A stretch of 64,000 bases of DNA from Strigamia acuminata. Taxonomy: Eukaryota; Arthropoda; Chilopoda; Geophilomorpha; Linotaeniidae. A program made the position numbers and the translations under genes. The stretch spans positions 52,273,162-52,337,161 of the forward strand of contig OX442314.1 of the NCBI GenBank assembly GCA_949358305.1, in the 5' to 3' direction. Shown here one piece after another: positions 18,997 to 64,000 of the stretch (its first letter is position 1; each line of letters begins with the position of its first letter). The notes below the pieces were generated by a model. That model was not told the origin of the DNA and made no database searches. It was given only the letters and a program-made list of their open reading frames with translations.

Positions 18997-20437
18997 GGGA
19001 TGGACTAATCGGCAGCTGTCAATCGTCAGCTGTCAGCTGGCAGCTGGCAGCTGGCAGCTGACGAATCGGATTATGTCGCTAATCCGTAAAAAACGCCGAA
19101 ACTAATCGGCAGCTGGCAGCTGTCAATCGTCAGCTGCCGCCGATTTTTGGCTCCGATTTTCGACCGTCAGCTGCGCCGGTTTTTGGCCGACAGCTGCCGG
19201 TAGCTGCGTCGGTTTTAGACCGGCAGCTGCGCTGGTTTTGACCGGCAGCTGGGCCGGTTTTGGGCCGGCAGCTGCGCCGGTTTTTGATCGTCAGTTGCCG
19301 GCGATTTTCGATCGTCAGCTGCCGCCGATTTTTGACGTACAGCTGACGAATTTTGGTCGGCAGCTGCGCTGGTTTTGACCGGCAGCTGGGCCGGTTTTGG
19401 GCCGGCAGCTGGGCCGGTTTTGGGCCGGCAGCTGCGCCGGTTTTTGATCGTCAGTTGCCGGCGATTTTCGATCGTCAGCTGCCGCCGATTTTTGACGTAC
19501 AGCTGACGAATTTTGGTCGGCAGCTGCGCTGGTTTTGACCGGCAGCTGGGCCGGTTTTGGGCCGGCAGCTGCCGGCGATTGATTTTTGGCGGACAGCTGG
19601 CGATTTTTGGTCGGCAGCTGCGCTGGTTTTGACCGGCAGCTGGGCCGGTTTTGGGCCGGCAGCTGGGCCGGTTTTGGGCCGGCAGCTGCGCCGGTTTTCG
19701 ATCGTCAGCTGCCGGCGATTTTTGACGTACAGCTGACGATTTTTGGCCGGCGATTTTGGCCTGACAGTATTTCATTTCATTTGTAGTATTTCATTTCATT
19801 TGTAGTATTTATTTCATTTATATTTGTATTCATTTGTATTCATTTATATTCATTTATATTCATATATATTCATATTCATATTTATTTGTAGTATTTCATT
19901 TCATATTTTGTAGTATTTCACGTGTATTTCATGTGTATTTCATAGCGCTGACGGTCGAAAACCAGCAGCTGACGGTCAAAAATCGTCGCAACTGCCAGTC
20001 GAAAATCGACGCAGCTGCCGATCTAAAACCGGCGCAGCTGCCGGTCAAATACACGATCGAAAATGCTGCCATCAAATTCAAAAATCGTCAGCTGTACGTC
20101 AAAAATCGGCGGCAGCTGACGATCGAAAATCGCCGGCAACTGACGATCGAAAACCGGCGCAGCTGCCGGCCCAAAACCGGCCCAGCTGCCGGTCAAAACC
20201 AGCGCAGCTGCCGGTCTAAAACCGACGCAGCTACCGGCAGCTGTCGGCCAAAAACCGGCGCAGCTGACGGTCGAAAACCGGAGCCAAAAATCGGCGGCAG
20301 CTGACGATTGACAGCTGCCAGCTGCCGATTAGTTTCGGCGTTTTTTGCGGATTAGCGACATAATCCGATTCGTCAGCTGCCAGCTGCCAGCTGACAGCTG
20401 ACAGCTGACGATTGACAGCTGCCGATTAGTCCATCCC
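18997..20437. mobile_element. hAT-like foldback element packed with CAGCTG motifs
   Basis: The ends are GGGATGGACTAATCGGCAGC and its reverse complement. The host octamer CTAAATGT is duplicated at 18989-18996 and 20438-20445. Both arms are built of the same short modules (GGCAGCTGCGCCGGTTTT, TGACGTACAGCTGACGA, GATCGTCAGCTGCC), inverted around an AT-rich centre (19760-19940, TTTCATTTGTAGTATTTC-like). The left arm is further amplified by duplication of a block of about 180 bp (19225-19400, 19355-19580 and 19605-19780). The palindromic hexamer CAGCTG recurs dozens of times. There is no transposase, and the open frames are low-complexity artefacts. The 8-bp duplication fits hAT (P-type elements also make 8 bp). 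Confidence 0.8.
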
Positions 20438-21574: not shown

Positions 21575-23866
21575 AGCAGCAAATTTGTTTTTGGAGTACA
21601 AGAAAGTAATCGATGACCAAGTTGATCAACTGGTGCAGGGAATTGTAGAAGAAATACCTCCAGAAGAGGAAAATGGATCCATTTACTATATGCCCCATCG
21701 ACCAATGATCAAAGATGAAAGACTGACAACAAAACTTCGGATCATTTTCGACGCTTCGTCGCACAAAAAAGGACAACCGTCCTTAAATGACTGCCTGTCA
21801 ATAGGGACAAACCTTTTACCATCTCTAATGTTCATTTTATTAAATTTTCGTTCCAGAAAAATAGCAATCATGCCGGACATTACAAAAGCATTTCATATGA
21901 TTAAAACAGCCCTCAGAGACCGAAACGCAACAAGGTTTTTGTGAGTGGACAAAAATTGGGACGGAATAGGCCGCGCCATCATCAAAATTCTACGACAAAT
22001 GCGCATACTATTTGGAGCGACCCCAAGTTCGTTCTTGCTTAGCGCGACGATCAAACACCACCTCAAAAAACACATGGCAGATTTTCCAGAAACATGCAAC
22101 CTAAAAAAAAAGTTCCTGTACATGGACGATTTTATTTCGTCATTAGACAATGTCGAACAGGCTTTGAGAGTGTTTCATGAATCCCGCGCAATTCTTTCAA
22201 CAGCTGAAATGGAGCTGGCAAAATGGCAAACAGACTCACCAGATTTGCGAACCAAATTCCGAATGAAATACCCACTGACGCTGACAACACTAACGACCGA
22301 CAGCCTCCACATCAATTCCGAAACAGAAGAAATCGATGAAATCCACGTCAAGGCAATTCAAAGAAAAAATAATAAACTTTTTGGTTTTGAAAATTACAGC
22401 TCGTTTAGCACAATAAATCGAGTGACTACATGGTGCCATCGTTTCAACTTCAACGCAAAACCAAACATCAGGCTAACACGTAAAATGGGTCCACTGACGG
22501 TTGCTGAACTCAAACATGCAAACCTGTCATTGGTCATCGCCGCACAACACGAGTCATACGGCACAGAAATAAAACAACTGAAAGACGGAAAACGACTGAC
22601 CGCAGACTCAAAAATCCAAACGATGCATCCATTTCTGAACAATGAGGGAGTTATGCGACTGAGAACTCGACTGCACAACTCAAAGAGACGAAACTACAAC
22701 TGTCCAACCAATCGTCCTACCCCTGAAACACAATTTAATGAAATTAATTCTTTTATTTTGTCACTCACAGGTTCTCCATTGCGGACTCACGGCAACAATA
22801 TCATATTTTTTAGAGACCTACCGGACGCCAACCGCAAGGAGAACCTTGAAGTCCATTTTGAAGATGTGTGTTATTTGCAAGCAAATACAAGGACGACTGA
22901 TGAAAGAGTCACCGGGCCTACTACCATTCGACAGAGTGACCTGCTGCGAACCATTTGCAGTCACTGGAATAGTCTTTACTGGACCTATCTACATTTGAGG
23001 AAGGAAAACCAAAGCATACGTTGCACTTTTTACGTGCGCCAACATAAGAGCGGTCCACTTCGAATTGGTTCCTTCAATGAGCACTCCAGATTTCGTTGAT
23101 GCATTTGAGCGTTTCGTCAGCCGCAGCAGGCTCCCAAAAACAATCTACAACGACAACTTTTCACCGAACAGACAAAGAACTAAGTGCCCTGTTGAGTAAC
23201 ACTGAAAACAATTCATTTCGAGCATATTTAGGCAACATGGGCATCAAATGGACATTTATTGTAGAGTATGCACCGTTTAGAGGGAGGATTCTGAAAGCGG
23301 ATGGTCAAAGCCCTAAAAGCCAGATTAAAGAAATCACCAGATCCGCTTCCCTCAATTTCTTTCAATTAAATACACTCTTCACTCAAGTTGAAGCCGTCAT
23401 CAATCGAAGACCAATGACTTACGTGTATGATTCGCCCAACGAGTCTAAGGCACTCACCCCAGCGCACTTCTTAACTGGAGAAACACTCACTTCACTTCCG
23501 GACCGCCTGTTACTTAACCGACTCAGAGTCAACTCAGGAGAAGTTCGTAAAGCAGTGGCGTCATAGACAAAAAACTCTTTTTTTCATTTTGGACACGATG
23601 GTGTAAAGAATATCTCACCGACTTGAAAAATCAATTTGGCAAAGAGAGTGAAAACATCTTAAAATTGAATGATGTCTTCATTGTGGAAGAACAATTTAAA
23701 CCACGCCTCCAATGGAAGATGGGTTGTGTTACGGACGTTCGGGAGGGAAGAAATGAAAAGATTCGCTCTTGCAAATATAGTTCTCGCTGACGGAACCAAG
23801 TTGAGGCGTCCCATTCAGCGCCTTGTAAATTTGGAAATCCAGCCATCAGTTGCGGGGGCAGTATAA
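21575..23866 (+). pseudogene. pol: BEL/Pao retrotransposon pol remnant (RT, RNase H, integrase)
   Basis: Reading across several frames, the order is as follows. A BEL/Pao reverse transcriptase N-terminus is at 21585-21941 (MIKDERLTTKLRIIFDASSH, IMPDITKAFHMI), ending at a stop at 21942-21944. The RT palm continues at 21945 with the catalytic-like YMDDF motif (22119-22133). A decayed connection region follows, then integrase with a GPIYI and a DAFERFVSRSRLPKTIYND block (23085-23160). The C-terminal part has INRRPMTYVYDSP, LTPAHFLTGE, KEYLTDLKNQFG and PRLQWKMG (23400-23725). At least four frame changes or stops are present, and gag, protease and LTRs are missing. Its C-terminal part is a clear relative of 7616-8160. 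Confidence 0.8.
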
Positions 23867-37600: not shown

Positions 37601-40600
37601 TTTTTCTGCAGACAAATGACGCCTTTGGACGAGCAGCATTCCAGGTACGACAACGGCCGGAGAAACAGCGGCAAGGGTAAAACTTGAACAGAATTTTTCT
37701 TATTAAAATACCATACGGCACACCTTTACATCAATGCCTACCCGAGCATAAAACAATACATCCAGGCCATCCCGAGTAAAAAGTGAGCAGCCACGGTCGA
37801 TACGAGAGCCTCAACTACACAAGGAGCAAACGCCAAGCGGAAGCAAACAAAACTTAAACGACGCAAGGCTGTGGGATTCAGCCCTAATCCTGCTCGAGTT
37901 AAAATGATTCCTAATGCGGTACTCCTGTAACGTAAACAACATTGTAACCCGAGTTAGGTAAAGATGCGATTAGATATATTAGACAGTGGTCGGCAATTAA
38001 TTTTAAGTGGGGTCCAGATACTATTGAAAATTTTTATCGAGGTCCAGAAAAAAACACTTAAAAACCTTACTAAAAACTTAAGAAAACGAAAAAAAACACT
38101 TAAAAACCAAATAAACCCCCCCAATAAACACACACAACCCAAAAATAACCAAAAATGAATTTTTGGTCCAGAAATTAAATTTTTGATCCAAAAAAAGAAT
38201 TTTTCATCCAAAAAAGGAATTTTTGATTCAAAAAAAAAATTTTTGGTCCAAAAGATGATTTTTTGGTCCAAAAGATGAATTTTTGGTCCAAAAGATGAAT
38301 TTTTGGTCCAAAAGATGAATTTTTGGTCCAAAAGATGAATTTTTGGTCCAAAAGATGAATTTTTGGTCCAAAAGATGAATTTTTGGTCCAAAAGATGAAT
38401 TTTTGGTCCAAAAGATGAATTTTTGGTCCAAAAGATGAATTTTTGGTCCAAAAGATGAATTTTTGGTCCAAAAGATGAATTTTTGGTCCAAAAGATGAAT
38501 TTTTGGTCCAAAAGATGAATTTTTGGTCCAAAAGATGAATTTTTGGTCCAAAAGATGAATTTTTGGTCCAAAAGATGAATTTTTGGTCCAAAAGATGAAT
38601 TTTTGGTCCAAAAGATGAATTTTTGGTCCAAAAGATGAATTTTTGGTCCAAAAGATGAATTTTTGGTCCAAAAGATGAATTTTTGGTCCAAAAGATGAAT
38701 TTTTGGTCCAAAAGATGAATTCTTGGTCCAAAAGATGAATTCTTGGTCCAAAAGATGAATTTTTGGTCCAAAAGATGAATTTTTGGTCCAAAAGATGAAT
38801 TTTTGGTCCAAAAGATGAATTTTTGGTCCAAAAGATGAATTTTTGGTGCAAAAGATGAATTTTTGGTGCAAAAGATGAATTTTTGGTCCAAAAAATGAAT
38901 TTTTGGTCCAAAAGATGAATTTTTGGTTCAAAAGATGAATTTTTGGTCCAAAAGATGAATTTTTGGTTCAAAAGATGAATTTTTGGTCCAAAAGATGAAT
39001 TTTTGGTCCAAAAGATGAATTTTTGGTCCAAAAGATGAATTTTTGGTCCAAAAGATGAATTTTTGGTCCAAAAGATGAATTTTTGGTCCAAAAGATGAAT
39101 TCTTGGTCCAAAAGATGAATTCTTGGTCCAAAAGATGAATTTTTGGTCCAAAAGATGAATTTTTGGTCCAAAAGATGAATTTTTGGTCCAAAAGATGAAT
39201 TTTTGGTCCAAAAGATGAATTTTTGGTCCAAAAGATGAATTTTTGGTTCAAAAGATGAATTTTTGGTCCAAAAGATGAATTTTTGGTCCAAAAGATGAAT
39301 TTTTGGTCCAAAAGATGAATTTTTGGTCCAAAAGATGAATTTTTGGTCCAAAAGATGAATTTTTGGTCCAAAAGATGAATTCTTGGTCCAAAAGATGAAT
39401 TCTTGGTCCAAAAAATGAATTTTTGGTCCAAAAGACAAATTTTTGGTCCAAAAGATAAATTTTTGGTCCAAAAGATGAATTTTTGGTCCAAAAAATGAAT
39501 TTTTGGTCCAAAAGATGAATTTTTGGTTCAAAAGATGAATTTTTGGTCCAAAAGATGAATTTTTGGTTCAAAAGATGAATTTTTGGTCCAAAAGATGAAT
39601 TTTTGGTCCAAAAGATGAATTTTTGGTCCAAAAGATGAATTTTTGGTCCAAAAGATGAATTCTTGGTCCAAAAGATGAATTCTTGGTCCAAAAGATGAAT
39701 TTTTGGTCCAAAAGATGAATTTTTGGTCCAAAAGATGAATTTTTGGTCCAAAAGATGAATTTTTGGTCCAAAAGATGAATTTTTGGTCCAAAAGATGAAT
39801 TTTTGGTCCAAAAGATGAATTTTTGGTCCAAAAGATGAATTTTTGGTTCAAAAGATGAATTTTTGGTCCAAAAGATGAATTTTTGGTCCAAAAGATGAAT
39901 TTTTGGTCCAAAAGATGAATTTTTGGTCCAAAAGATGAATTTTTGGTCCAAAAGATGAATTTTTGGTCCAAAAGATGAATTCTTGGTCCAAAAGATGAAT
40001 TCTTGGTCCAAAAAATGAATTTTTGGTCCAAAAGACAAATTTTTGGTCCAAAAGATAAATTTTTGGTCCAAAAGATGAATTTTTGGTCCAAAAGATGAAT
40101 TTTTGGTCCAAAAGATGAATTTTTGGTCCAAAAGATGAATTTTTGGTCCAAAAGATGAATTTTGGACACAAAAACACAAAAACACAAAAAAAACAAAAAA
40201 AAAACAGGAAAAACAAGAAAAAAACACCGAAAAACCAAAGATTCCGGATACGGACCGCGGCCCGCCTATCACTTACCGTATAACTACGACAGTTGCTTTC
40301 AGGTCTTCCGCAGGTGCAAAAAAAGGGAAAGGAAACGGTATGTTCCCCAACGCCATTCCAGTTAAGAGCATACCTGCAAGACAAGACTCAAAACACTATA
40401 AATTACACATTGGCGTTATCTACCAAACAAAGGCGGCAGGTGAAGCAACTTGATTAATTCCCCTCCTATAAACGCAGTAGTTTCAATAAAAAACACCGTC
40501 CACACTATTCCGCCAGGATACACATCGTCTCCAAATATGCCAAAGAGAGTAATCCACACGCAGGCGACGATTAGAATAAAGTAAATCACTTTCGCCGGAT

Positions 40601-49345: not shown

Positions 49346-49541
49346 CAATGTTGTTTTATTATTATTTGTTTCAAATACAAATATACAAATACAAATATTT
49401 GTATTTATTTTATGCCATTATTCCACAAGACAACAAAAAAAAAACAACCTTGGACCAAGATCTGAAATACCAAACCGATCAATGTAGTCTTCTGGTCAAA
49501 ATACATGTGATAAATAAACTTCTAGTCACGTCACGTGCAGT

Positions 49542-50560
49542 TGTTGTGACCCGACTGGACCGGGGTCAACGAAGAGTTTCTCTCGTGACCTCGTTTCGGG
49601 TGTAAGGGGAGCCGCAAGCGCGTCTCCCTTCCCTCAGTGCATTGACATCTAGTCAATGGACAGGCGTCTGCCCTGAGGGAGTGGGGATGGCTCGTCCACC
49701 CCACCATTGGGTGATTCCGGTCACCTGTCAACCCCGCTTTGTGCAAAGGAATGTGCCTTGCACTGAGCGGGCAGAACCAACACAACCATCAAACGAGAAA
49801 CACACGTAAACCCGTCGTCCTACAAGATCAGGCCCAAGTAAATATACTGGGATTGACCAAGGACAAAGGACAATTTACCGTGAGTACGTTTGGTCAGTGT
49901 CAAACTCCGCAGAGTAACCTGCGAGATAAGATTACCACACTATTTTAGCACACCAGCTAGAAATAGTAAAAACCACTCCAGTTTAGCGAGTTGTGCAGAC
50001 AAACGGTCGCACAAGCCTAAACTGCAGTAAAACCACGACGAGCGTTCCCGCCGCTGTGTGACCGCCGGGAGCCAGAAGAGTCCGCCGCTGTGTGATCGCC
50101 GGACACCACACAAAAACCTAGACAACAGCCCGAAGTAAGCCTTTTAACTAAGCATTCACTCGCGCCCGACCAGCGTGAGCCCGAAGGACCAGCCAGAGAC
50201 GAGCCGAGGACGCCATATTGCCACGCCGGCCCAAGACGACACCACGTTGCCACAACGAGGACGCCATCTTGGACACGACCGAGACAACAGACGACCTCGC
50301 CGATTCCAGCCAGCTTTCATCATACCTTTACCTTTCCATTTCCCTTCACCCATTCCGATTTACCTTTTACCTACCTTTTATATATATATATATATAAGAT
50401 ATATCTGTACATTGTCCCACAGAATAAATCTATATTATATTTTACCTTTTATATCTGTGTAATCATTTCTTTGGGTAAACCGCTTGAGCAAAGCGGTAGT
50501 GAGTTAGTCGAATTAAGTAATCAACCCACGAGTTAGCGACGGTTAGAGTTGAGCGCGACA
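49542..50560 (+). repeat. 5' LTR of the Gypsy element
   Basis: Begins TGTTGTGACCCGACTGG and ends GAGCGCGACA. A (TA)n tract at about 50378-50400 may serve as TATA, with AATAAA at about 50424. Short open frames in it occur identically in the 3' LTR and are not genes. Confidence 0.93.
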
Positions 50561-50562
50561 CG

Positions 50563-50580
50563 TGGGGGCCTGTCCGGGAT
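50563..50580 (+). promoter_or_regulatory. Primer-binding site
   Basis: TGGGGGCCTGTCCGGGAT starts two bases after the 5' LTR. It is close to the complement of the 3' end of tRNA-Pro (two differences from the TGGGGGCTCGTCCGGGAT used by some retroviruses), so tRNA-Pro or a similar tRNA is the likely primer. Confidence 0.65.
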
Positions 50581-50632: not shown

Positions 50633-53600
50633 ATGGCAGATAATACCCGAGTAACAGATTCCGACTCCGACGCAAACAAGAGAGCCGGCAGTCGTAAAGG
50701 CGCCGACTATCACTTGCGATCTGGAGGTCCCTTACCCAAAGCCTCAGCGCACGAAGCGAGGCAAAAACGGCGTAAGCCTAAACCCGATCGTAGAAGCGCA
50801 TCCGAGGCATCGCACCCGTCTCGCACCGAGACGAGGCAGCGATTGGACGAGACAGAGCGGGGTGAAGAGCAATCTCACTCCAAACTGCCGCGTTCTAACC
50901 GTGACGGCGAGACGAGCGGAAACGAGGTTTTATCCCGTAACCAATCGCCTCGTCTAACGCACGACACCGAGGTGGGCAGTCCGAAAGCAGCGTCTCCGAT
51001 ACAAAAGACGGCCTCAAATACGACCGCTAATTCGGCACTAAACACGCCAATTACGCAAAGCCGCCCAGCTTCGGTCAGGTCCGAAGGACACAAGTCCAAC
51101 TCATCCTCTGTCAAGCGTGTTTCGAGCCAGCCTTACAGCGTCTCGGGCACCTTGATTGATGCGATGCAATTGGCACAGGCGGAAGGAGTGAGATACACCC
51201 TTCCGACGGGGAAAATTACCGTGTACGAAACGTTACAGATCGTACGTGCAGCTTTAAAAGCGCACAGTGTATCCCCACAAATCACCATTGTTGAAGGTGC
51301 ACACGCTCAACAATTGGTTGATTCCGCTCAATTTGAAGCGGATGCAGAGAACGAGGCTCGTCAAGCCATTCGCGAGAGACGGAGGAAGCTGGCGGAAAGA
51401 GAAGCGCAAGCTCTCGAGTACGGCAGAACCCAGCCCAATCCGACTACTCCCGAGGAGGTAGAAATAGTTGACCGAGCCCTGAGAGCACATCGATATGCTT
51501 TCCACTCGCAACAAGAAGCAGAGCGAGCATTTATGGCCAGATTGCGACGAGATGACCCGAAATCCGTCCGCAAACCAGAGGTCAGTTCATCCGAGCTGTC
51601 CGACGAGAGCCTAGAGGGAGACCCAAAGCGCACGCCGAAGGCCAAACCCAAACCCCAGCCGGAGAGAGCAACACCAGCTACTCCGCGCAAGAGAGATGCG
51701 TCGGCCAGAGAACAACAAACTCGGCCCCGCATGCAAGCTCTCGATTCAGCCACAAATAATGCGATAACGCGATTAATCAACGCTAATAATGCTAGGCGAA
51801 ATGAAGAGCAAGCTCTCACAAGCCAACAGCATGATAATCCACAAGGGACTGAGTGGCAACAACCAGTGCCCATCCTTAAAGACGACGAGTCGTCAAGGAG
51901 ACAATCGCATGATCGCACCTCTTCGCGAGAAGAAGGCAAACGCGATGAAAGACCGAAATATTTTCACTACGGAAATAGTGATTCGTCGTCAGATGGACTG
52001 GAGTCAAATGCACCCAGTCATCACGATTCGGAGAGAGGTTCCGGAGAAAGACGAAGGGAAAGAGAACGCGATGAACGCAGAGAAAGGGAACGTGACGACC
52101 GTCGTAGGGGCCGGAAAGAGTCAAACTCTTCACGGCGCAACCCGCCACGCCGCTCACCGTCTCCCGACCCCAGCTCCGACCCCTCATCCAACGACGACAG
52201 ACGAAAGGAAAAATCAAGTAATCGCCGGAAGAGATCCAACTCTCCGCGCGATAGAGAGAAACGACGTCGATCGGAAAATAGCGACCACCGACGGGAGGAG
52301 TTTCAGGACCTTCCCCGACAAAGCGCGTTTACCGATTCGACGGGTCGGCAGTATACGATGGGAGAGCTTGGAAGAGCCCTACTCGGCTCGTTAAAAGCCG
52401 AGGGAATTGATCTGAGCAAACGAAACGATCGTAATCGTAGCACTGGTGACCGCGTAAAGAAAAAATACGCTGCCTCCCGACGTGACACCATGAGTGTTAC
52501 CGGGAATATTAGGTGGCAATTTTATATTCAGAACCGTTTCGACGGGTCATGGAAAGCGGGAGATCGCTTCCTTGACGAAGTAATTCGAATTAAGACTGCC
52601 ACTAAAGCCACCGTAGGAGACATGCTCACCCACGGTATTGTCGAGCTAATGACAGGCTCGGCACGTGAGTGGTACCAAGGATTGAAAGGCGTCAATTGGG
52701 ACGACTTTTTAATGAGATTCGACCTGCGCTACGGCGAGACACCCGAAGAGGTGAGCCGAAAGATGCGAGGTCTTCGCCAGATGCCTGGTGAAACCATAAT
52801 GGATTACGACATTCGCGCCAGATTGTTGTTCGAAAAGGCCCCGATGGAATTTCACGCCACGGGATTCAACCTTTTCTTTCTCGGCGGTTTGTCGGAATAC
52901 TCGCAAAGGGTGCTACTTGAAGAAAGGGCACCGACAGGAGGTAGCTACGAGGAGATGAGCGCCTTCCTGTTCGAGAACACGATAGATATCGAGAAGAGAT
53001 ATTATTCCGCTTTACCAGAAGCGGAGAAAGCAGCGACCGCAAAACGTCTCAAGTTGAGTGCGGAAAGATATGGGGCGACAGATAAGATTATGCGCCCTAC
53101 TGAATATCTTAGCGGTATAATGGAGCTGGCAGAAGCTAGCGTTGGTTTGCAAATAAAAAATAAACTGACATCCCCGCTGCCTTCCAACCCTTTGGCCGCC
53201 CCTAAAAAGGCACCGACAGCGTCAGCCATGCAAGCGACACTGGAGGAGGTCAAGGAGGGGGAGGAAGCCGAACAAAATGTCGGAAAATCAGACGAAAAAG
53301 AAGAAAAAGACGATTATTCGACGGACGAAGAAATACGAAGCTATCGCGATACCTTATCAACGGGTTGCGATGAGGAAGGACCGCTAGTACATCTCATCCA
53401 TCGAGATAGAGCGGTAGAAGAATTTCGCGCCAGGTTAAAACCAAATGCCGGTCGAATTCCGAAGTATTTTCGGAAAAATTACACGCCACCGTCGAAAGCA
53501 GACCCTGAAAAGAAAAAATCGACTGAAGCCCCAAGAGACAAATCAAATATTCGCTGTTTCAAGTGTAACCAACCGGGCCACTACTCCAATGAGTGCCCAA

Positions 53601-53716
53601 GAACAGCGAAAGAAGACGCTAAGTTTGACGCGATAATGAAGCAGATGGCAGAGATTAAACTCGCCATGGCAAAAAACGAGTCAAAAAACGAGTCAGCGCA
53701 GGCGGCGAAGAAATAA
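50633..53716 (+). CDS. gag: Gag polyprotein of the Gypsy element
   Basis: 1027 aa from the ATG at 50633 (GAAATGGC context); an in-frame GTG at 50606 is not used as a start in eukaryotes. The first 600 residues are a long charged, Ser/Arg/Glu-rich disordered region with RERERDERRERERDDRR near 475-490, far longer than usual for Gypsy gag. Residues about 620-800 form the capsid-like domain (RWQFYIQNRF, GSAREWYQGLKGVNWDDFLM, MRGLRQMPGETIMDYDIRAR). One zinc knuckle CFKCNQPGHYSNEC lies at about 975-988, followed by a Lys-rich tail. It assembles element RNA into particles. Near its 3' end lie two slippery heptamers that lead into pol. Confidence 0.93.
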   Translation: MADNTRVTDSDSDANKRAGSRKGADYHLRSGGPLPKASAHEARQKRRKPKPDRRSASEASHPSRTETRQRLDETERGEEQSHSKLPRSNRDGETSGNEVLSRNQSPRLTHDTEVGSPKAASPIQKTASNTTANSALNTPITQSRPASVRSEGHKSNSSSVKRVSSQPYSVSGTLIDAMQLAQAEGVRYTLPTGKITVYETLQIVRAALKAHSVSPQITIVEGAHAQQLVDSAQFEADAENEARQAIRERRRKLAEREAQALEYGRTQPNPTTPEEVEIVDRALRAHRYAFHSQQEAERAFMARLRRDDPKSVRKPEVSSSELSDESLEGDPKRTPKAKPKPQPERATPATPRKRDASAREQQTRPRMQALDSATNNAITRLINANNARRNEEQALTSQQHDNPQGTEWQQPVPILKDDESSRRQSHDRTSSREEGKRDERPKYFHYGNSDSSSDGLESNAPSHHDSERGSGERRRERERDERRERERDDRRRGRKESNSSRRNPPRRSPSPDPSSDPSSNDDRRKEKSSNRRKRSNSPRDREKRRRSENSDHRREEFQDLPRQSAFTDSTGRQYTMGELGRALLGSLKAEGIDLSKRNDRNRSTGDRVKKKYAASRRDTMSVTGNIRWQFYIQNRFDGSWKAGDRFLDEVIRIKTATKATVGDMLTHGIVELMTGSAREWYQGLKGVNWDDFLMRFDLRYGETPEEVSRKMRGLRQMPGETIMDYDIRARLLFEKAPMEFHATGFNLFFLGGLSEYSQRVLLEERAPTGGSYEEMSAFLFENTIDIEKRYYSALPEAEKAATAKRLKLSAERYGATDKIMRPTEYLSGIMELAEASVGLQIKNKLTSPLPSNPLAAPKKAPTASAMQATLEEVKEGEEAEQNVGKSDEKEEKDDYSTDEEIRSYRDTLSTGCDEEGPLVHLIHRDRAVEEFRARLKPNAGRIPKYFRKNYTPPSKADPEKKKSTEAPRDKSNIRCFKCNQPGHYSNECPRTAKEDAKFDAIMKQMAEIKLAMAKNESKNESAQAAKK
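53671..53689 (+). promoter_or_regulatory. Tandem -1 frameshift sites A_AAA_AAC
   Basis: AAAAAAC occurs at 53671-53677 and again at 53683-53689, both in the A_AAA_AAC phase relative to gag. The -1 frame is open from there through 53740 into pol. Gag ends at 53716. This is the standard arrangement for making Gag-Pol by -1 ribosomal frameshifting; the duplication of the site is unusual. I did not fold the downstream RNA. Confidence 0.75.
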
Positions 53717-53739: not shown

Positions 53740-56700
53740 ATGAAGAAAAAGGGGTTTAACAAAGGGTTCGATAAGCCGCCACCAGTCAAAGAAATGGGTA
53801 GTGACATAGCTAACGCCCAAATTCAAGACAGGGCCAACAACGCTTTGCAGGTAATTACCGCAAACGCTGAGGCTGAGGCGGAAGAACCGAACCTACTGCT
53901 TGAAGAATTACCTCAAGTAGTCGAAGACACAGAAGAATTTCGTGTTTTCATGTGCAACGTGGCGGTCGAATACACCAACCGCCTATGTATGTTGCCCATG
54001 ACAATAGAACGTGAAAAAATTATGGGACTACTAGACTCGGGAGCAGATCGCTCGTTCGTTTCCGAAGACATAGTAGCATCATTGGGTCTCACCGATAAGA
54101 TAAAAGGCGTTAATAAAAATATACGTCTAAAAACCGCCAACGGAATGGCGCGTCCAAAAGGAGTTATATTATTGACCATGGAGTGGCTCGGAGGAGTAGA
54201 ACAGCACCCTTTCCTGGTCCTGCCCACATGCGACAGAATTTTTCTGTTGGGCTTAGACCTCATGGCGTCAATGGAAATACAACCCAATCCAATAACGAAA
54301 TCTTGGAATTATATCAGAAATGATAAGGAAAGACCCGCAATTGTCGTGCCACCAGCTCTTGTAAAAGAAGCGGCCGACAAGACACAGTGGGAGAAAGGCC
54401 TAAAGAAATTCGTTCAAGATTACGATTTTAAAGCATTCGTAACAGAATTGCAACGGGACAATGTAGTGGAAACGCTTGTCGCCGACGCCGCTTTAGAATT
54501 AAACGAAGCGGCAGCCCTACGAAGGGTCCTACTTAAATATGAGGGGATCCTGTCGAAAAAACCGGGCCGAACGAATAGGGCTATTCACGAAATTAAATTG
54601 ACGGATAATAAACCTATACGAGTTGCGTATAAGGGAATGAACCCGCAAAAACGTGAAATAGTGCAAAAAATGTGCCAAGAAATGCTAGACAGTGGCATTG
54701 TCTCCGAGGCCCAGGGAGAATACGCGACGCGAGTTGTGCTCGTGATGCGCCCGGGCTCGGACCCACGCCTATGCATTGATTACCGCCCATTAAACGCGGT
54801 GACAGAAATAGATCCCATACAGATGCCGTCTATCGAATCCATTTTGAGAGAGCTTAGCCCCTTTTCTTGGGTTACGACGATGGATCTGTCGAAGGGATAC
54901 TGGCAAGTTGAGATGAGGCCAGAGGATAAGTTAAAAACAGCATTTTACTCGCCAATTGGACGGTTGATGTTCAACGTCATGCCATTTGGTTTAGTGAATG
55001 CTCCCAGTACCTTTCAGAGACTAATCGAAAGCGTATTGGGTGATATCCTGCATCAGTTTGTGTGGGCATACCTAGATGACATAGTTATTGCCTCTAAAAC
55101 ATTCGAAGAGCACATTGAGCACATCGACCAAGTGCTCACCCGGCTGGCAAAAGCTGGGTTACACGTGCATCCGGGCAAAAGCAAGTTCTGTCGAAAGGAG
55201 CTTGCCTTCCTGGGTTATCGCATTGGAGTCAATGGTTTAGCTATTGGCCCCGAAAAAATCGATGCGATTAATCGTTTCCCACCACCCGAGGACGTTAAAG
55301 GTGTCCAACGGTTTATGGGAATGATAAACTTCTTCGGCAGGTTGCTACCGGGTCTAGCTGAAGTGGCAGCCCCAGTTACCGACCTCCTGAAGAATGAAAA
55401 CGAATTTGTATGGTCAAATGAGTGCAACATCGCATTTAATGCAATAAAGAGGATGCTGACGGAAGTCGGCGTAATGCCTCTACCCGACTTAAACCGGCCG
55501 TTCATATTACACACGGACGCCAGCAGAGTTGGGTTAGGAGCGGCGTTGCTCCAAACACACGTGCGCGACGGAGTCGAACAAGACCTGCCGTGCATGTTTA
55601 TAAGTCGCAAACTCCAAGGCGCTGAAAAGAATTACAATGCCACCGAGTTGGAGTGTTTGGCCGTTGTGTGGGCCATAAGGAAATTCAGAGATTATCTCGA
55701 ATATACCAAATTTGTGGTCCACACAGATCATCAAGCGTTACAATGGCTGATGAAATTAAAAGAGCCAGCCGGTCGACTAGCCAGATGGCAGTTAGAACTG
55801 ATGGCATGCGACTTGACCATTCAATACAAGCCCGGCAAATATAACGTCGTGGCTGACGCTCTGTCACGGGCACCAGTGTCAGATCCAATCGACGCTGACG
55901 ATGATGGCGAGGATGACTCCCGCATCATTTATTGCCCTACGAGTTGTCACCGTTGGGATTTAAGGAAGATGAATGAAATTCCCACCGCGTCTCCGGCAGA
56001 TGTAAAATTCTGTGGATTTTGGACGCGGTTATACCAACCAGCTGCTGACAATTACCCAAATGCAAGGAAGGAATTTAAGCTAGAGCGGAGAATAAATGAC
56101 CCGCTTCTAAGCGCCTTCCACGCTCATGTCGGCGAGCAGATGCAAAGCAGTCCCCCGACAAGGGAGGAAATAATTGTGCAACAAAAATTAGACAAGAAAT
56201 GTCAGGACAGAGCTAGATTCGTACTGACAGGAAAATATCCGCCCAATCTAACCAGAAGGCAGAAGCGTCGTTATGCACACGAATCCATAGATTACCTATT
56301 GGATGACGGCCTTTTAGTGAAACATCACCCAAATCACCAAGATGACTTGAGTGAATCGGACACCGCAGTAAAGGTAGTAATACCTGCTTCCTTAATCGGT
56401 CGCGTGCTGTGGTTGTTACACGGGCACCCGCTTGCGAGCCATGCGGGAGTAAGCAGAACACTCTATCGTGCTACACAGCTTTTTCACTGGACAGGGATGA
56501 AAAAAGATATTGCTCTTTTTGTCCACCAATGTCAGCGATGTCAAGCGTGCAAGCCGAGGAGTAAATCACCATTCGAAACTATTTTCTTAGGGCCTTACGC
56601 GCCTTTTGATTGTTTAAGTGTCGATGTGATGGGCCCAAAACCCGTTACGGGAAATAAAAATGCGTACATTATCGTTATAATGGACGTGGCAACTCGTTGG

Positions 56701-57810
56701 CCCGAGTTGTACGCCGTCGCTAGACCTTCAGCAGAGAAAATCGTTGAATGTATCTACGACGTGGCGTTACGTTACGGATTTCCACGTAAAATTATATCCG
56801 ATAACGGACCCCAATTTATCTCGAAAATTTGGGGTAAGTTTTGTGAGAAATTCGGGATTGTGGCGTCACATACTTCGACCTACAATCCCAGAACAAATCC
56901 CGTTGAGCGACTCAACAGGGACATTAAATATGCACTAAGCATATTCACTGACATCCACAATAGGTGGGATGAATACTTGAGGGAGATCGCGTTCAGCATA
57001 CGAACAACAGTCTCGAGGACGAGAGATTTTTCTCCGGCCTACCTCAACTTCGCCCGAGAGCTACGAGTGCCTTGGGACCCACGAGTGGCAGAGTCGGTAA
57101 ATGTGGTGGACCCAGAGAAACCACATGAGTATGTATATAAATTGGAGCAAACAATTTCGAGCACATACAAACATATGATGGCGCACATTTTTAACATGCG
57201 CGACCGCATTTTACAAGATAAAAGCGGTGGAAAATTTGTGAATTTCGAGAACAATGATTTAGTGTGGAAGGACACACACATCCTCTCAAATGCAGCGAGA
57301 GGAATCACCGCCAGCTTGGCCGACAAGAGAGATGGTCCGTATGTGATCATCGGCAAGCATGGCGGTAACGCGTATAAATTACGCAAGCTCGAGGACAACA
57401 CCGAGCATAAGTCGATACAAGTACGAGAGTTAACTCCGTACATTCCGGAATTCCCGCAAGAAATGTGGGCCAAAGGCCAAGTCAAGTCTAAAACTGACGG
57501 CCAAATCGTCGATATGTTCGCTGGCGAGTCGGAAAAAGCACCGCCAAGTGACAACGAGGAGTATTTCGACGCCCCTTCACCTCCGGTAAACGAGATAGTT
57601 GAATCCGTTCCGGATCCAATTTTGGTCGGGGGGGAAACAGGAGAAACTCCTGAAACAAACACAAAAAACACGGATAAAAAAGAAAACAATAATGAGGAGG
57701 TACAGACACAAAAAACAACAAAAAATATCGTACCTGCCTCGATCCGTAACCTGCGACCAAAAAGAGATAATCCGTTCATAAAAGGCGGAAAGGTCGTAGG
57801 AAAGAAGTAA
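53740..57810 (+). CDS. pol: Pol polyprotein (protease, RT, RNase H, integrase)
   Basis: 1356 aa from the first ATG of the frame, which is also open upstream to the slippery sites, so the product is probably a Gag-Pol fusion. Aspartic protease: LLDSGADRSF, Asp99. Reverse transcriptase: CIDYRPLNAVT, TTMDLSKGYWQ and the catalytic YLDD at 444-447. RNase H: HTDAS near 591-595 and HTDHQAL. Integrase: zinc-binding HHCC (HASHAG...CQRCQAC region), catalytic Asp962 (SVDVMGP), Asp1021 (SDNGPQF) and Glu1056 (NPVERL), then a GPY/F-like module (DGPYVIIGKHGGNAYKL). The C-terminal tail of about 120 residues is acidic, then basic. All catalytic residues are present and there are no stops. It makes and inserts the DNA copy. 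Confidence 0.96.
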   Translation: MKKKGFNKGFDKPPPVKEMGSDIANAQIQDRANNALQVITANAEAEAEEPNLLLEELPQVVEDTEEFRVFMCNVAVEYTNRLCMLPMTIEREKIMGLLDSGADRSFVSEDIVASLGLTDKIKGVNKNIRLKTANGMARPKGVILLTMEWLGGVEQHPFLVLPTCDRIFLLGLDLMASMEIQPNPITKSWNYIRNDKERPAIVVPPALVKEAADKTQWEKGLKKFVQDYDFKAFVTELQRDNVVETLVADAALELNEAAALRRVLLKYEGILSKKPGRTNRAIHEIKLTDNKPIRVAYKGMNPQKREIVQKMCQEMLDSGIVSEAQGEYATRVVLVMRPGSDPRLCIDYRPLNAVTEIDPIQMPSIESILRELSPFSWVTTMDLSKGYWQVEMRPEDKLKTAFYSPIGRLMFNVMPFGLVNAPSTFQRLIESVLGDILHQFVWAYLDDIVIASKTFEEHIEHIDQVLTRLAKAGLHVHPGKSKFCRKELAFLGYRIGVNGLAIGPEKIDAINRFPPPEDVKGVQRFMGMINFFGRLLPGLAEVAAPVTDLLKNENEFVWSNECNIAFNAIKRMLTEVGVMPLPDLNRPFILHTDASRVGLGAALLQTHVRDGVEQDLPCMFISRKLQGAEKNYNATELECLAVVWAIRKFRDYLEYTKFVVHTDHQALQWLMKLKEPAGRLARWQLELMACDLTIQYKPGKYNVVADALSRAPVSDPIDADDDGEDDSRIIYCPTSCHRWDLRKMNEIPTASPADVKFCGFWTRLYQPAADNYPNARKEFKLERRINDPLLSAFHAHVGEQMQSSPPTREEIIVQQKLDKKCQDRARFVLTGKYPPNLTRRQKRRYAHESIDYLLDDGLLVKHHPNHQDDLSESDTAVKVVIPASLIGRVLWLLHGHPLASHAGVSRTLYRATQLFHWTGMKKDIALFVHQCQRCQACKPRSKSPFETIFLGPYAPFDCLSVDVMGPKPVTGNKNAYIIVIMDVATRWPELYAVARPSAEKIVECIYDVALRYGFPRKIISDNGPQFISKIWGKFCEKFGIVASHTSTYNPRTNPVERLNRDIKYALSIFTDIHNRWDEYLREIAFSIRTTVSRTRDFSPAYLNFARELRVPWDPRVAESVNVVDPEKPHEYVYKLEQTISSTYKHMMAHIFNMRDRILQDKSGGKFVNFENNDLVWKDTHILSNAARGITASLADKRDGPYVIIGKHGGNAYKLRKLEDNTEHKSIQVRELTPYIPEFPQEMWAKGQVKSKTDGQIVDMFAGESEKAPPSDNEEYFDAPSPPVNEIVESVPDPILVGGETGETPETNTKNTDKKENNNEEVQTQKTTKNIVPASIRNLRPKRDNPFIKGGKVVGKK

Positions 57811-58286
57811 AATAAATTACGAGTCGATGGCGGCACTAAAAATAAATGTAATCGACCGATAGTGCAAGCCATCACGTCGCAGAAAATTTCGCTAAGTCCA
57901 ACAAAGCGGATATCGGTCGAATTCGCGTCACGAGATGGCGTGGAAACGCGGGACCCGTAGCAAAATTATCGGCACGGGTCGGATACCGCGTGCAAAAGAC
58001 CCCGTAGCAGCAATCGCGCACGGGAGTGAGAACAAAGGAGACCCGTAGCGTAACATGCGCACGGGTAGGTGCGCACTAGTCTCAAACACCCGGGTTCTGG
58101 AGTATATTACCCAGAATCCATCGCGATTACCTCGTGTTCACACAGACTTCCGCTTTTCACAGCTGATCGCTGCATTCGTGCGTGATCCTCGTTTTTAACG
58201 TTTTACCGAGTTTTTCACCGAGTTTTTGAGATAGTTTTATCATCCTTTTTAAATCGTGATTGAGATTTTTGTGCGCGCTCCTCGCC
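57811..58286 (+). promoter_or_regulatory. Pol-ORF3 intergenic region with three hairpin modules
   Basis: Three related modules open with (A)CCCGTAGC and close with GCACGGG(T): 57953-57979, 58000-58024 and 58041-58066. Each can form a 5-6-bp stem (ACCCGT/ACGGGT). Downstream are a TATTAC-containing AT patch (58112), an acceptor-like CTTCCGCTTTTCACAG ending at 58162, and the strong start context CGCCATGG at 58284-58291. These could be RNA export, packaging or splicing signals, or an internal promoter for ORF3. Confidence 0.45.
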
Positions 58287-61200
58287 ATGGACGAGGAAGA
58301 GAACGACGTGCTGGCCATCGAGCACGAGGACGAGGAAAACTGGGACCGCGATGTAAACCAAGTCCATCCCGATCAGGTAGAAGTCGGCATCGGCACATGA
58401 GAACTAGTTCCGTGCTGCTGAAGAAGAAATTTTGTTGACTAATACCTGACATGAGTGCTTTGCACTCACAATAGCGTATAATTAATTATTAACCGCGATC
58501 GCTCACACGATCGTATTTTTTTTCTTGTTAATTTGTTTTCGGGGTGCGAGCGCAGACTTCAAGTCGCCTCGCGTCTCGAAAATTCCTCATGACTTGAGTC
58601 ACGAGCGAGACAATGGGCTCGAGCCATAAATAATTTTATGACAAGGGGAGAATATTCTGTAAAAGAATATTTTTCTCCACAAGTAATTTGACGCATCAAA
58701 TTGATGCAACTTCACATTCGTACGATGAATTTTTCGATGTGTTAGATAAATTTAATTTGACTTTAACTTTTTTTAAAAATTAGACAAAGTCCGACTTCGG
58801 AATAATTCTTTATTAGATTTATTTATTTAATAAAATTTCGACAAGCACATTTATTGTGCAACTTTAGTAATAATTTACACCCGACGAATTCTTTTTACGA
58901 ATGACTGATAATTATTAATTTAATTATTGGTAATGTTCTAATTAACGTTAGAATTAATTTAAAGTAAAAATCTGATGATAAAAATCCGGATTAAAGGCTC
59001 GATTCCGTCTCGCTGTGCGTTTTGGACATGAGACAGATTTTTCACGTGATGACTTCTCTTTTTCTATCCGACGAGGGACAATTCGTCCTACGTTTGCACC
59101 GATAGACAGGAATCGGTCTCGACGGACGGCTGCACGTATCGGCAACGTCCCTCGAAACCAACCATTTATCTACGTATTTAAATATTAACTTTTTATTAAT
59201 TGTTTATTTCTCCATCCTTCCAGATGGCACTACGTAAAACATGGGGACCATTAGACCCCGCTTGCATCGCTCGTGGCGGGATATTTCGAGGCGCGCTGCC
59301 CGAATTTTACCGACGATGTTTCGGCGAGGACGCCGACCCTTGGCGCCTGCGAATACTACATTCCCGATGCATCGCCCGACGTTGGGTACGAGACTGCACG
59401 CTCCTGGATACGTTCCCGGAGGGAATGCGCGAAGGCATCGCCACAGAGTTAGCTCGTGACGATGACCCGAAATCGCCGATTTTCCACCCCGGATTGTCAA
59501 GTCAGTACACTGGCAACCCGGCGGAGGAACACGTGCTGCATGCGTGGCGAGCAGCCGAGACAGAAGAGGCCCGTGAGGCCATCTACCAGCATTATAGACA
59601 ACAGCTGGTGGATACCGCTACGGCAGTGGCCGAGCGCATCCTCCAAAACGAGGGGATGACCGCGGATGATATTCATCTGTGGTTTGAGAGGCTGCGATTG
59701 GGAGAGAGTACGCCCCAGTGGAGACCTCGGATGGGAATTTTGACGTCCCAAGCCGAGATGTGGCAGCTCCACTACCTGGGGATTTTGGGGCCCAAGAGCA
59801 GCTACCCGCGGAAGCGCAAGCGCTCCAAAGGCGCCGGGGACAGCCAGTCGCGTTCCCCAGCGACAACCAAGAAGCAGCGTGTCGCTCAAAACACGACTGA
59901 AGGCAACGAAGCTGGGCCATCCACTAGTACGGTGCGTGACCCTTCGCAGTATTCCCGACCGCGAATTTTCATAAACCGTCAGATTAAAGACGGTAAGGAG
60001 TGCAAGGAGGTTTGGATGTCTGGTGACGAAGAGCGAGTCTCTCGTCCCAGCACTTCTAGACGTCCGCTGACTCATCGCGAGCAGCGGAAAAAAGATCGCA
60101 AGGAGCGATACTTCGCGAGGTGCGAAGCTCGGGGCCGTCCCATCCCCGAACCCGCCTACATCTCCAAGAGAGCGGGTCGACGAAGTGGTAGCCAGTCAGG
60201 TGAGCGACACGTCCCAGCGGCAGATACGCGGGACCTTCGCGAGATTCTGACTCAGATGAAGCGGACGAAACTGACACGTTTCGATCCCGCGATGAAACAC
60301 GCCAGGAAGATGGGTGTTGTCACCGACGGGAAGGTGACCCCACACGAGGTGGCAAGGTGGCTCGCAGACTACATTAATTCGCGACCACGACCCGATGGCA
60401 TGCCAACCGCCATCGTGCAGCCTTCAGGCTCCGGACAACATCTCCCGGCGCTCCAAGTCGCAATGACTGGAGTGCAGACGACGGAGACGCCACCACCGCC
60501 GACGCAGCCAACACCACCGCTGCCGACGCCGACGCTGCCGACCAAGACGCAGCCGCCTCCGAACCTGCCGCCGCCGTCGTTGTTGAATTCGAGCGATCCG
60601 CCGGATTTACCCACCGACCGCTCAGTCCCTCTCCCCGTTGGACAGAGCATTGCGCAGGAATGTCGAGCCAATTTGACCGGCATTTACAGGCCGAGCCAAC
60701 CCCGATCCGGTTCCTCGGCCCTGTTTTTCGAGAGGCGAGACGAAGAAGCGCGACTCGCGAGAGAAGCCGCCAATCCGACTATCTCCGAGCTCTCAGCGTT
60801 TCGCTTCGTGATGGAAGACCCAAGAGTCTCCGCGCCCGCCTTGCGAGGTGTGGATCAGGCCCAGCGATATTTCATCGAATGGGCAACGGCGATGATGAGT
60901 AAGCTCTCGTGTGCCTTCACTGCGGATTCGGAGCGATCGAATCCAGTGAATCGTCGCAGCCTACAGCTATCATTGACCAAGGTCATGATGCAGCTGCTAA
61001 CCCCAGCACTCTTCGGAGAAGGGCGTCAGGCGATGGCCGCATGGTCTGTCGTGGACAGAGAGGGTGTACAGGTTCCCCGTGCACTCCTCGCAGAGTGGAG
61101 CTCCATTCTGCCCGACCCTGTGTTGACTCGGTACGAGCTAACCAGGGATGTGGTAAACCCCGAATTTGAGGGGTACAAGTTGCGAAGCACGGCGTTTCGT

Positions 61201-61989
61201 TATACCTCCGCCACCTGGACAGCGGCGCCTACCCAACAACTGCGCGCCTTGACCATCCAGACGGAAGAATCGGCAGAGGATGTAGAAATGGTGATCTCGC
61301 CGACGAGCGGAGTTCCGATTCCGCCACCGATGCCTGCGGAGATATCCCCGCAAGGACCCGCCCTGTTCGAAGTGGCGGGTAAACCAAAGCGCTTGCTGTG
61401 CCGAACGCCACCCGTCAGGTCCGTCGAGCAAACGAAGCCGACACCGCCCGGGACCTCACCGGCCCGAGCGGCGACAACGACGCAAGCCGCTATTCCCGCG
61501 GCCACCCAGAAGCCGAAGCCGGCACCGCCTCCGCCAGACTATTACGGGCGAATCATCGAAGAGTTTCCCCATCTCTCGATGACGACGGCGACCAGGAGGT
61601 TTATCCTCGCGCAGCGGGACAAAGGCAAATCAGTCTTCATCTGGCTTCACAACCAGATCCGGAAGACTAGAGACCTCATCTTCCACCAGAGGTTGCTGAG
61701 AGCCCACCGTGTGCCAGTGACGCCAGCGGAAGCCAATGCCATCCGGCATACGAACACCGGCTTCTCCGCCTACATCCCGAGCGTTTGGTTACACGAGAGG
61801 ACGCGTGCCCCGCATGAGCCAGTTGACGGCCATGCATTATGCTTCATTACGGAGCATGAGGACCCCCGAGATCGGTCCTCGGCGTTAGTAGGCGATCTAC
61901 CCGCGCCACCCGGCACTCAACCGCCTGTCCCTGGAGTGAGTTACGCCCAGGTGACGGACTCAGTGTCGGGTCCCCCAGGAAAGAAGTGA
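58287..61989 (+). CDS. ORF3 of the Gypsy element, spliced, unrecognised protein
   Basis: The main exon (59224-61989) encodes 921 aa from ATG 59224. The bases right before this ATG are a textbook acceptor (TTTATTTCTCCATCCTTCCAG). Upstream, ATG 58287 opens exactly 30 codons of very acidic sequence (MDEEENDVLAIEHEDEEN...) ending at CAG|GTAGAAGT (58376/58377). Joining 58376 to 59224 keeps the frame and gives 951 aa. The main exon has an Arg/Trp-rich N-terminal helical region, a nuclear-localisation-like PRKRKRSK at about 195-202, a Pro/Thr-rich linker (about 420-460), a second predicted globular part (about 530-700) and a C-terminal region with RRFILAQRDKGKSVFIWLHN. No signal peptide, transmembrane segment, furin site or fusion peptide is visible, so it is not an envelope. 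It is clearly GC-richer than gag and pol. I do not recognise the family. Confidence 0.8.
58377..59223 (+). other. Putative intron of ORF3
   Basis: 847 bp, GTAGAAGT at the 5' end and a long pyrimidine-rich stretch ending TTCCAG at the 3' end. AT-rich compared with the flanking exons and full of stops in all frames. Confidence 0.6.
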
Positions 61990-62015
61990 TCGCTCAGCCC
62001 CACGGTCTGAGCTCG

Positions 62016-62025
62016 GAGGGGGAAG
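62016..62025 (+). promoter_or_regulatory. Polypurine tract
   Basis: GAGGGGGAAG directly precedes the 3' LTR. It is the primer for plus-strand DNA synthesis in LTR elements. Confidence 0.85.
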
Positions 62026-63044
62026 TGTTGTGACCCGACTGGACCGGGGTCAACGAAGAGTTTCTCTCGTGACCTCGTTTCGGGTGTAAGGGGAGCCGCA
62101 AGCGCGTCTCCCTTCCCTCAGTGCATTGACATCTAGTCAATGGACAGGCGTCTGCCCTGAGGGAGTGGGGATGGCTCGTCCACCCCACCATTGGGTGATT
62201 CCGGTCACCTGTCAACCCCGCTTTGTGCAAAGGAATGTGCCTTGCACTGAGCGGGCAGAACCAACACAACCATCAAACGAGAAACACACGTAAACCCGTC
62301 GTCCTACAAGATCAGGCCCAAGTAAATATACTGGGATTGACCAAGGACAAAGGACAATTTACCGTGAGTACGTTTGGTCAGTGTCAAACTCCGCAGAGTA
62401 ACCTGCGAGATAAGATTACCACACTATTTTAGCACACCAGCTAGAAATAGTAAAAACCACTCCAGTTTAGCGAGTTGTGCAGACAAACGGTCGCACAAGC
62501 CTAAACTGCAGTAAAACCACGACGAGCGTTCCCGCCGCTGTGTGACCGCCGGGAGCCAGAAGAGTCCGCCGCTGTGTGATCGCCGGACACCACACAAAAA
62601 CCTAGACAACAGCCCGAAGTAAGCCTTTTAACTAAGCATTCACTCGCGCCCGACCAGCGTGAGCCCGAAGGACCAGCCAGAGACGAGCCGAGGACGCCAT
62701 ATTGCCACGCCGGCCCAAGACGACACCACGTTGCCACAACGAGGACGCCATCTTGGACACGACCGAGACAACAGACGACCTCGCCGATTCCAGCCAGCTT
62801 TCATCATACCTTTACCTTTCCATTTCCCTTCACCCATTCCGATTTACCTTTTACCTACCTTTTATATATATATATATATAAGATATATCTGTACATTGTC
62901 CCACAGAATAAATCTATATTATATTTTACCTTTTATATCTGTGTAATCATTTCTTTGGGTAAACCGCTTGAGCAAAGCGGTAGTGAGTTAGTCGAATTAA
63001 GTAATCAACCCACGAGTTAGCGACGGTTAGAGTGGAGCGCGACA
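62026..63044 (+). repeat. 3' LTR of the Gypsy element
   Basis: 1019 bp, matching 49542-50560 apart from one base noted near the end. Followed by the second CAGT target copy at 63045-63048. Confidence 0.93.
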
Positions 63045-63303
63045 CAGTTGGAAACGCATTTCACAATTTCCAGGACTTTGTACCTTGTGTCGTGTTTGAA
63101 AAAATAGTTTTTTGATAGCCAGAACTATCTCTTTAATCCCCTGATACAACACGTGTTTCCAAAGTCACCAAAAATGGAAATGATTCAACGGGATTGGATT
63201 TCGGAAATGATTGAATTTTGATTAAAATAGTAGATAGTCTATCTAGTTTTTCCTCTGATTTATGCTGTTTTGCATTTCAGTCGACATTATTCCATCCGAC
63301 AAG

Positions 63304-64000
<697 letters not shown>

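Follow-up and report, generated by a model that had tools for sequence, protein, structure and literature searches.

Non-envelope third genes of long terminal repeat (LTR) retrotransposons have been frequently noted but seldom shown to be real. The question of whether such a gene is genuine, how it is expressed and what it might do is raised by an insertion near the end of a 64,000-nucleotide stretch of the genome of Strigamia acuminata (contig OX442314.1, positions 52,273,162 to 52,337,161 of the forward strand), which is referred to here as the window. This insertion is a complete Ty3/gypsy LTR element whose gag and pol are followed by a third gene (open reading frame 3, ORF3), and it is young, because its two LTRs differ at only 1 of 1019 positions. 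To answer the question, the genome can serve as its own experiment: the intron is proven by a copy that was spliced and then retrotransposed, selection can be seen in both exons of a diverged copy, and the part that is retained is evident from deletion variants. On the basis of our results, ORF3 is a spliced gene of this element family that is under purifying selection, and its product might be a nuclear protein that regulates the unspliced RNA of the element.

ORF3 is composed of two exons on the forward strand. Exon 1 (58287..58376), which is located 476 bases past pol and outside the 5' leader, is a 30-codon acidic leader with a net charge of -12 and ends in CAG, directly followed by GTAGAAGTC. 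Exon 2 (59224..61989) is the main coding exon of 921 codons and a stop, whose ATG at 59224 lies immediately 3' of TCCATCCTTCCAG. The intron between them (58377..59223) has 847 nucleotides, GT-AG ends and a GC content of 36%, and the two exons are joined in frame to give 951 codons. The original prediction, which was made from the letters of the window, had described the intact 921-codon frame behind pol with its ATG at a splice acceptor as well as the acidic upstream exon, and both could be read as proposed.

Splicing of the third gene had also been predicted. A search of the genome (237.5 Mb, up to three mismatches) for the predicted 24-mer splice junction revealed a single match with one mismatch, and a reversed-pattern control gave 0 matches. 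This match (C6:10318250) belongs to a copy starting from ~10.309 Mb (L029), in which precisely bases 58377-59223 are missing and the native 951-codon frame is present. The copy has two LTRs with 1 difference in 1020, the target-site duplication (TSD) AGTT, a gag without stops and a pol that is exactly that of the window across 53740-57750. Because a TSD-flanked copy shows the exact loss of all 847 bases, the intron is real: it was spliced out of an LTR-to-LTR RNA, and the spliced product was able to retrotranspose. It should be mentioned that CAG is common to the end of exon 1 and the end of the intron, so that the intron-less copy could formally also have arisen by a deletion at these 3 bases of microhomology; that such a deletion hit both predicted splice sites would then be a coincidence.

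The other loci that span the intron have retained it, as judged by the donor GT, which was present in 55 of the 57 loci analyzed, the exceptions being the spliced copy and L007, which is truncated inside the intron, whereas conservation of the acceptor in L030-L059 is by construction, as these loci were picked by their acceptor site. The acceptor 25-mer was found at 180 places (up to three mismatches) versus one match for the spliced junction, and thus the RNA that is reverse-transcribed appears to be mostly unspliced. The truncated copy (G000:C13:7725340-7731129) breaks off at the position corresponding to 58701 of the window and is joined there to other sequence.

Analysis of other copies revealed that ORF3 belongs to the family and not to one copy. 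All of the 49 best-scoring matches were full length without stops, although this set is biased to intact copies (the best 49 of 2225 candidates). When loci with an exact acceptor 25-mer were taken in genome order, 27 out of 30 were open through ORF3 codon 503; four of these 30 (L050-L053), which lie within 66 kb and have identical alignment figures, are probably duplicates. The numbers of 25-mer sites with up to three mismatches were 309 for reverse transcriptase (RT), 652 for the LTR, 180 for the acceptor and 197 for the 3' part of ORF3. A copy devoid of ORF3, which would have spoken against the original prediction, was not found among the copies read; on the other hand, RT sites outnumber ORF3 3' sites, and this excess was sampled at one place only, which turned out to be a diverged subfamily with ORF3. 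Among 46 LTR pairs from the first 100 LTR places, 35 were spaced 12.4-12.6 kb, 3 were spaced ~9.67 kb and 8 had other spacings, with 8 places remaining single. The family has many young copies and is open to test. We also observed three copies arranged head-to-tail with 14.84-kb spacing and the same alignment figures at G000:C1:45.68-45.72 Mb (L004-L006, L051-L053), with a fourth (L050) 36 kb off; these copies probably originated by segmental duplication and not by separate insertions.

As suggested in the original prediction, the same ORF was then compared among copies, where it was mostly intact in those examined and where the ratio of nonsynonymous to synonymous rates (dN/dS) shows that ORF3 is under purifying selection. 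Polymorphisms were collected from the window and 27 loci (28 sequences), which had been selected regardless of ORF3 integrity; the sites are not independent of copy ancestry. In codons 1-503, those shared by at least three copies comprised 27 nonsynonymous (N) and 29 synonymous (S) changes compared with a neutral ratio of 2.7 (p ~7e-5; 1e-5 to 3e-4 with other transition weights), including 6 N and 11 S in the N-terminal domain (N-domain) alone, and rare ones comprised 14 N, 15 S and 2 stops. After duplicates and two loci were dropped, the exon indels through codon 503 were of 3, 18 and 39 bases plus one single-base insertion in one copy, unlike the intron and the post-pol stretch, in which many single-base indels were present. 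When 13 older copies were compared with the window, dN/dS was 0.11-0.31 in codons 1-205 and 0.40-0.91 in codons 206-500; in codons 501-921 it was 0.12-0.20 in all three older full-length copies, which is comparable to the values of 0.12-0.18 that three shortened copies gave for the 3' part of pol. Young copies had too few changes for this measure.

How old the gene might be is indicated by the diverged subfamily, represented here by the ORF3 N-domain stretch of one copy (C1:26509455). Its RT 25-mer is identical to that of the window and 78% of positions match over 57605-58624, with the first 100 bases (the tail of pol) identical before identity falls. Exon 1 has 31 codons in this copy, its indels are all in threes and the donor context is the same. 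The intron is ~801 bases by arithmetic, and the first ~250 of 422 compared bases could be aligned. Codons 41-207 are gap-free (501 bases) with 71.7% DNA and 77% protein identity (129/167), the PRKRKRSKG cluster is unchanged, and the differences at the three codon positions (38/22/82 over 167 codons) correspond to a dN/dS of 0.058 with saturated dS. Since the gene predates subfamilies whose synonymous sites are saturated, the two-exon ORF3 appears to be an old resident gene of the family. A recent acquisition of the gene is thus contradicted, though the window insertion itself is young. In addition, the subfamilies may have a gag-pol backbone in common and differ in their 3' modules.

The protein encoded by exon 2 consists of a helical N-domain (residues ~1-190, low-confidence model), a KRKR cluster from residue 197, a Pro-rich linker and a conserved C-half (501-921). 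The predicted nuclear localization signal (NLS)-like cluster was recovered, with five K-[KR]-X-[KR] sites compared with a shuffle mean of 0.67 (300 shuffles). The predicted absence of envelope features also stood: no transmembrane (TM) helix was detected in ORF3 (best 19-residue Kyte-Doolittle mean 1.07), the furin pattern R-X-[KR]-R had no match, and the N-terminus is not signal-peptide-like, being acidic (-12 in 30 residues) without a hydrophobic stretch, as judged with no dedicated predictor run. No homology to Env-F was found, either as a Pfam match above cut-off or in the protein database, where none of the scored candidates matched at E<=0.01.

A known domain would have argued against the original prediction, and none was found: searches of Pfam, NCBIfam, PHROGs and PDB sequences gave chance-level matches only (for example, Peptidase_M16_C, E 0.26), with no esterase or exonuclease (GDSL, DEDDy) Pfam match at E<=1. 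Two protein-database searches returned nothing at E<=0.01 among the best 7993 and 7995 word-sharing candidates scored, and a search of viral contigs and plasmids gave no match. The protein database does contain arthropod retroelement proteins, as revealed by the pol search. Retroelement genes are often masked in annotated insect genomes, and therefore the absence of ORF3 from the protein database is weak evidence. An origin of ORF3 by duplication of gag was considered and rejected because no convincing similarity could be observed (best E 0.071). No publication was recognized as describing this element in a literature search that was thin on subscription papers and did not cover Repbase.

The region between pol and exon 1 was also examined. 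Within it, a block of 130 nucleotides (57882..58011, forward strand) shows no difference between the window and the diverged copy, which belong to two subfamilies, and both flanks are far less alike. The block belongs to a stretch in which CCCGTAGC..GCACGGG hairpins recur, and the fold of 57900-58090 had a z of -2.8, with 0 of 200 shuffles as good; no Rfam match at the gathering threshold was found in the window. It is possibly a cis-acting RNA element, with packaging, export or recombination as candidate roles. Two variations of the region were seen: in two older copies (L030 and L043) the alignment repeats window 57994-58065, and two copies have a 42-base insertion past window 58031, apparently an extra hairpin unit of the post-pol stretch.

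What the protein might do is best approached from two known cases. Rev performs export of unspliced RNA in HIV. CERV, a nuclear protein made from the spliced third ORF of the Caenorhabditis elegans Ty3/gypsy element Cer1, is needed for export of the genomic RNA (PMC10309623). We tentatively favor, with a probability of about 0.4, that ORF3 is a nuclear regulatory protein with a CERV- or Rev-like role for the unspliced RNA of the element. A nuclear accessory protein is favored because the position of ORF3, its splicing and the NLS-like cluster fit, and a CERV- or Rev-like role because intron-containing RNA needs nuclear export, which is what CERV provides for Cer1. In the proposed mechanism, the full-length LTR-to-LTR RNA holds the intron between exon 1 and ORF3, and the RNA for reverse transcription would stay mostly unspliced with a spliced minority, a fraction suggested by one junction versus 180 acceptor sites. 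The spliced RNA encodes the 951-residue protein, which would enter the nucleus via the KRKR cluster and, by analogy, might aid export or splicing escape of the unspliced RNA, with the hairpin stretch as a candidate RNA target. Its C-terminal part may double as a Pol tail, as suggested by two independent in-frame fusions. The mRNA of ORF3 could start from an internal promoter or be produced by an additional splice from the 5' leader.

Several observations weigh against such a role. First, exon 2 has no L-x6-L-x6-L-x6-L zipper, no match to a nuclear export signal and no CxC/CxxC Cys-rich loop. Second, structure prediction gave little help: AF2 pLDDT was 40 for the whole ORF3 and 52 for the N-domain, both models being poor, and Foldseek, with the N-domain model only, returned 26 matches from the PDB and 64 from the viral set at E<=10, none of them at E<=0.001. 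Third, the ORF3 of the spliced copy differs from that of the window by 7 N and 2 S changes, with no visible constraint, and retrotransposition took place without the intron both for this copy and for the Pol-fusion copies, possibly with ORF3 supplied in trans. Finally, in hairpin 3 of the diverged copy the CCCGT/ACGGG core is kept and the flanking pairs are lost, and the identity of the 130-nucleotide block could be a recombination tract. A much broader proposal would be that a Rev/CERV-type system originated independently in these Ty3/gypsy elements, with a large nuclear protein, made from an intron-containing gene, that would act on the hairpins between pol and exon 1 to control how its own genomic RNA is spliced or exported and whose C-terminal part would be usable as a Pol tail, one gene thereby linking RNA export and the integration machinery; this we regard as speculative and quite unlikely. 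If control of unspliced RNA by ORF3 is true, Rev-like control would have arisen in these gypsy elements separately from retroviruses and Cer1.

An alternative that is compatible with any function is that the third gene was captured as a transcription unit of its own, together with its promoter, 5' untranslated region and intron, and that its splicing out of the LTR RNA is accidental. Exon 1 has its own ATG well behind pol, a TATA-like GAGTATATTACCC was read by eye near 58100, and the intron and the GC content at third codon positions (GC3) are gene-like. The GC content of ORF3 (60% compared with 52% for gag and 47% for pol) agrees with the distinct GC-rich composition claimed by the original prediction; however, its GC3 of 0.648 compared with 0.676, 0.581 and 0.505 in three window ORFs taken for host genes indicates a composition that is unlike gag and pol, yet not clearly alien to the host. 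No source gene for ORF3 was found by searches in which a single-copy relative within this genome would have escaped notice, and acceptor-like sites ahead of 58146 and 58163 would also permit a retrovirus-like upstream splice. Thus, we consider this alternative doubtful, though worth retaining.

Ranked second to the nuclear regulatory role is the possibility that ORF3 is a particle- or integrase-associated protein involved in nuclear import or integration-site targeting, in favor of which are two different deletions that join Pol in frame to ORF3 and place its C-terminal part behind integrase. In the copies with 9.67-kb spacing, ~57759-60557 is missing and Pol enters ORF3 in frame near residue 445 and continues to the ORF3 stop (L062 and L063 read); this first fusion (pol 57758/ORF3 60558) has 19 junction matches. 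The second (pol 57794/ORF3 59983) is also in frame and open to the end of the stretch read (L067), with two junctions accepted by reading of three pattern matches. Partial loss of the gene is thus seen in the 21 junction matches in all, which represent copies that have lost exon 1 and the intron as well as the N-terminal part of ORF3, the remainder being fused to Pol. The C-half is strongly conserved in full-length copies, and chromodomains sit behind integrase in chromoviruses. The chance of two out of two joins being in frame is 1/9, so that selection for a Pol-ORF3 fusion is suggested, but not more. Although dN/dS of the C-terminal part was 0.22 and 0.24 in fused copies, most of this divergence is older than the fusion, and that after it is too small for a selection test (L062 differs from the full-length L070 by 3 changes in the C-half). 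Moreover, ORF3 is usually a separate product and not part of Pol, and Pfam revealed neither a chromodomain nor any other domain above cut-off in it. A role of this kind appears unlikely.

It is also conceivable that ORF3 acts against silencing by the host, such as that by the piRNA pathway, or regulates otherwise in trans, and is retained because it protects expression of the family. A large family-specific protein with NLS-like sites, whose middle evolves faster than its slowly changing ends, might fit such a role, and silencing suppression has been discussed for accessory domains of insect retrotransposons (PMC6338049). However, no sign of positive selection was present in the parts tested and there was no domain evidence, which makes this explanation improbable. 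Finally, a diverged envelope or cell-to-cell transfer protein is highly improbable, and this reading was rejected on the TM, furin and domain tests, the N-terminus being acidic and non-hydrophobic.

The remaining parts of the element, all on the forward strand, show the hallmarks of Metaviridae: TG..CA LTRs, a primer binding site (PBS), a polypurine tract (PPT) and a 4-bp TSD, the last in both the window copy and the spliced copy. The 5' LTR (49542..50560; TG...CA, 1019 bp) has an exact 1008-bp match to the 3' LTR (62026..63044) plus the one mismatch, and the TSD CAGT was read in both flanks (49538-49541 and 63045-63048). The PBS TGGGGGCCTGTCCGGGAT (50563..50580) is tRNA-Pro-like by sequence; a 3' end of tRNA-Pro has only 2 occurrences in the genome, neither shown to be within tRNA genes, and no tRNA was detected by ARAGORN. 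The first ATG of gag (50633..53716) is at 50633, its frame is open from GTG 50606, and Pfam identified Retrotrans_gag (PF03732) and a CCHC knuckle (PF00098). The pol gene (53740..57810) encodes protease, RT, RNase H and integrase (Pfam), which is the domain order of Ty3/gypsy elements. The PPT GGAGGGGGAAG (62015..62025) lies directly before the 3' LTR. By eye, ~600 Arg/Ser/Glu-rich residues of low complexity (50633-52600) precede the Retrotrans_gag domain, which covers residues 679-762 counted from 50606.

Other features of the window and the genome were also observed. A cathepsin-L-like gene (63300-64000), recognized by eye with no search made, begins ~260 bases past the 3' LTR, the element lying in or near its 5' region. 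A long tandem repeat with several overlapping open frames and FWTKNSSFGPKIHLLDQKFI-like units is located at 37954-40384 on the reverse strand, repeats with PAQNRPSCRPKTG-like units in ORFs of both strands at 19215-20304, and BEL/Pao-like remnants (by eye) at 21945-23566. The genome has 18,915 overlapping matches to TTAGG arrays compared with 2 for TTAGGC; this speaks for TTAGG telomeres, which many insects have, and a nematode host was rejected on these counts.

ORF3 was finally compared with known systems. The third gene of errantiviruses (env-F) occupies the same place and is also made by splicing, its exon being joined either to an AU dinucleotide or to an exon that lies within gag or upstream of it (PMC12992720); in contrast, both exons of ORF3 are behind pol, and the signal peptide, furin site and TM domain described for Env are absent from its product. 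Variable non-envelope ORF3s in LTR elements of bdelloid rotifers are said to be typically spliced, although the word 'intron' does not occur in the main text of the paper, and they carry recognizable enzyme domains (GDSL esterase, DEDDy exonuclease), whereas none was found here (PMC5408684). In plant LTR retrotransposons, ORFs of unclear role are also present in sense orientation between pol and the 3' LTR, with splicing reported for Bagy2, but the hosts are plants and the sense ORFs are termed env-like (PMC7264820). Similarly, sORF2 of the Drosophila MDG1 group is an accessory protein in an env-less group of insect LTR retrotransposons, but it is a short transmembrane protein encoded upstream of gag (PMC11952523). 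CERV itself has 517 residues and is encoded by five exons, of which three are in the gag frame; its described features are a Cys-rich loop, a G-like domain and possibly a leucine zipper (PMC10309623). ORF3 differs from it in having 951 residues and two exons, both behind pol, and is not classed as a CERV because the zipper and the Cys loop are absent. On the other hand, both are large, non-envelope-like sense ORFs between pol and the 3' LTR that are expressed from spliced RNA and contain a K-[KR]-X-[KR]-type NLS, and CERV is described as lacking obvious homology outside nematodes, just as no homologues of ORF3 were found. The PBS of both elements begins with TGGGGGCC, and the in-frame position of ORF3 behind Pol in the fusion copies resembles that of the last cerv exon, which shares the reading frame of the Cer1 polyprotein (PMC10309623). 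Thus, CERV appears to be the closest working analogue of ORF3 found so far.

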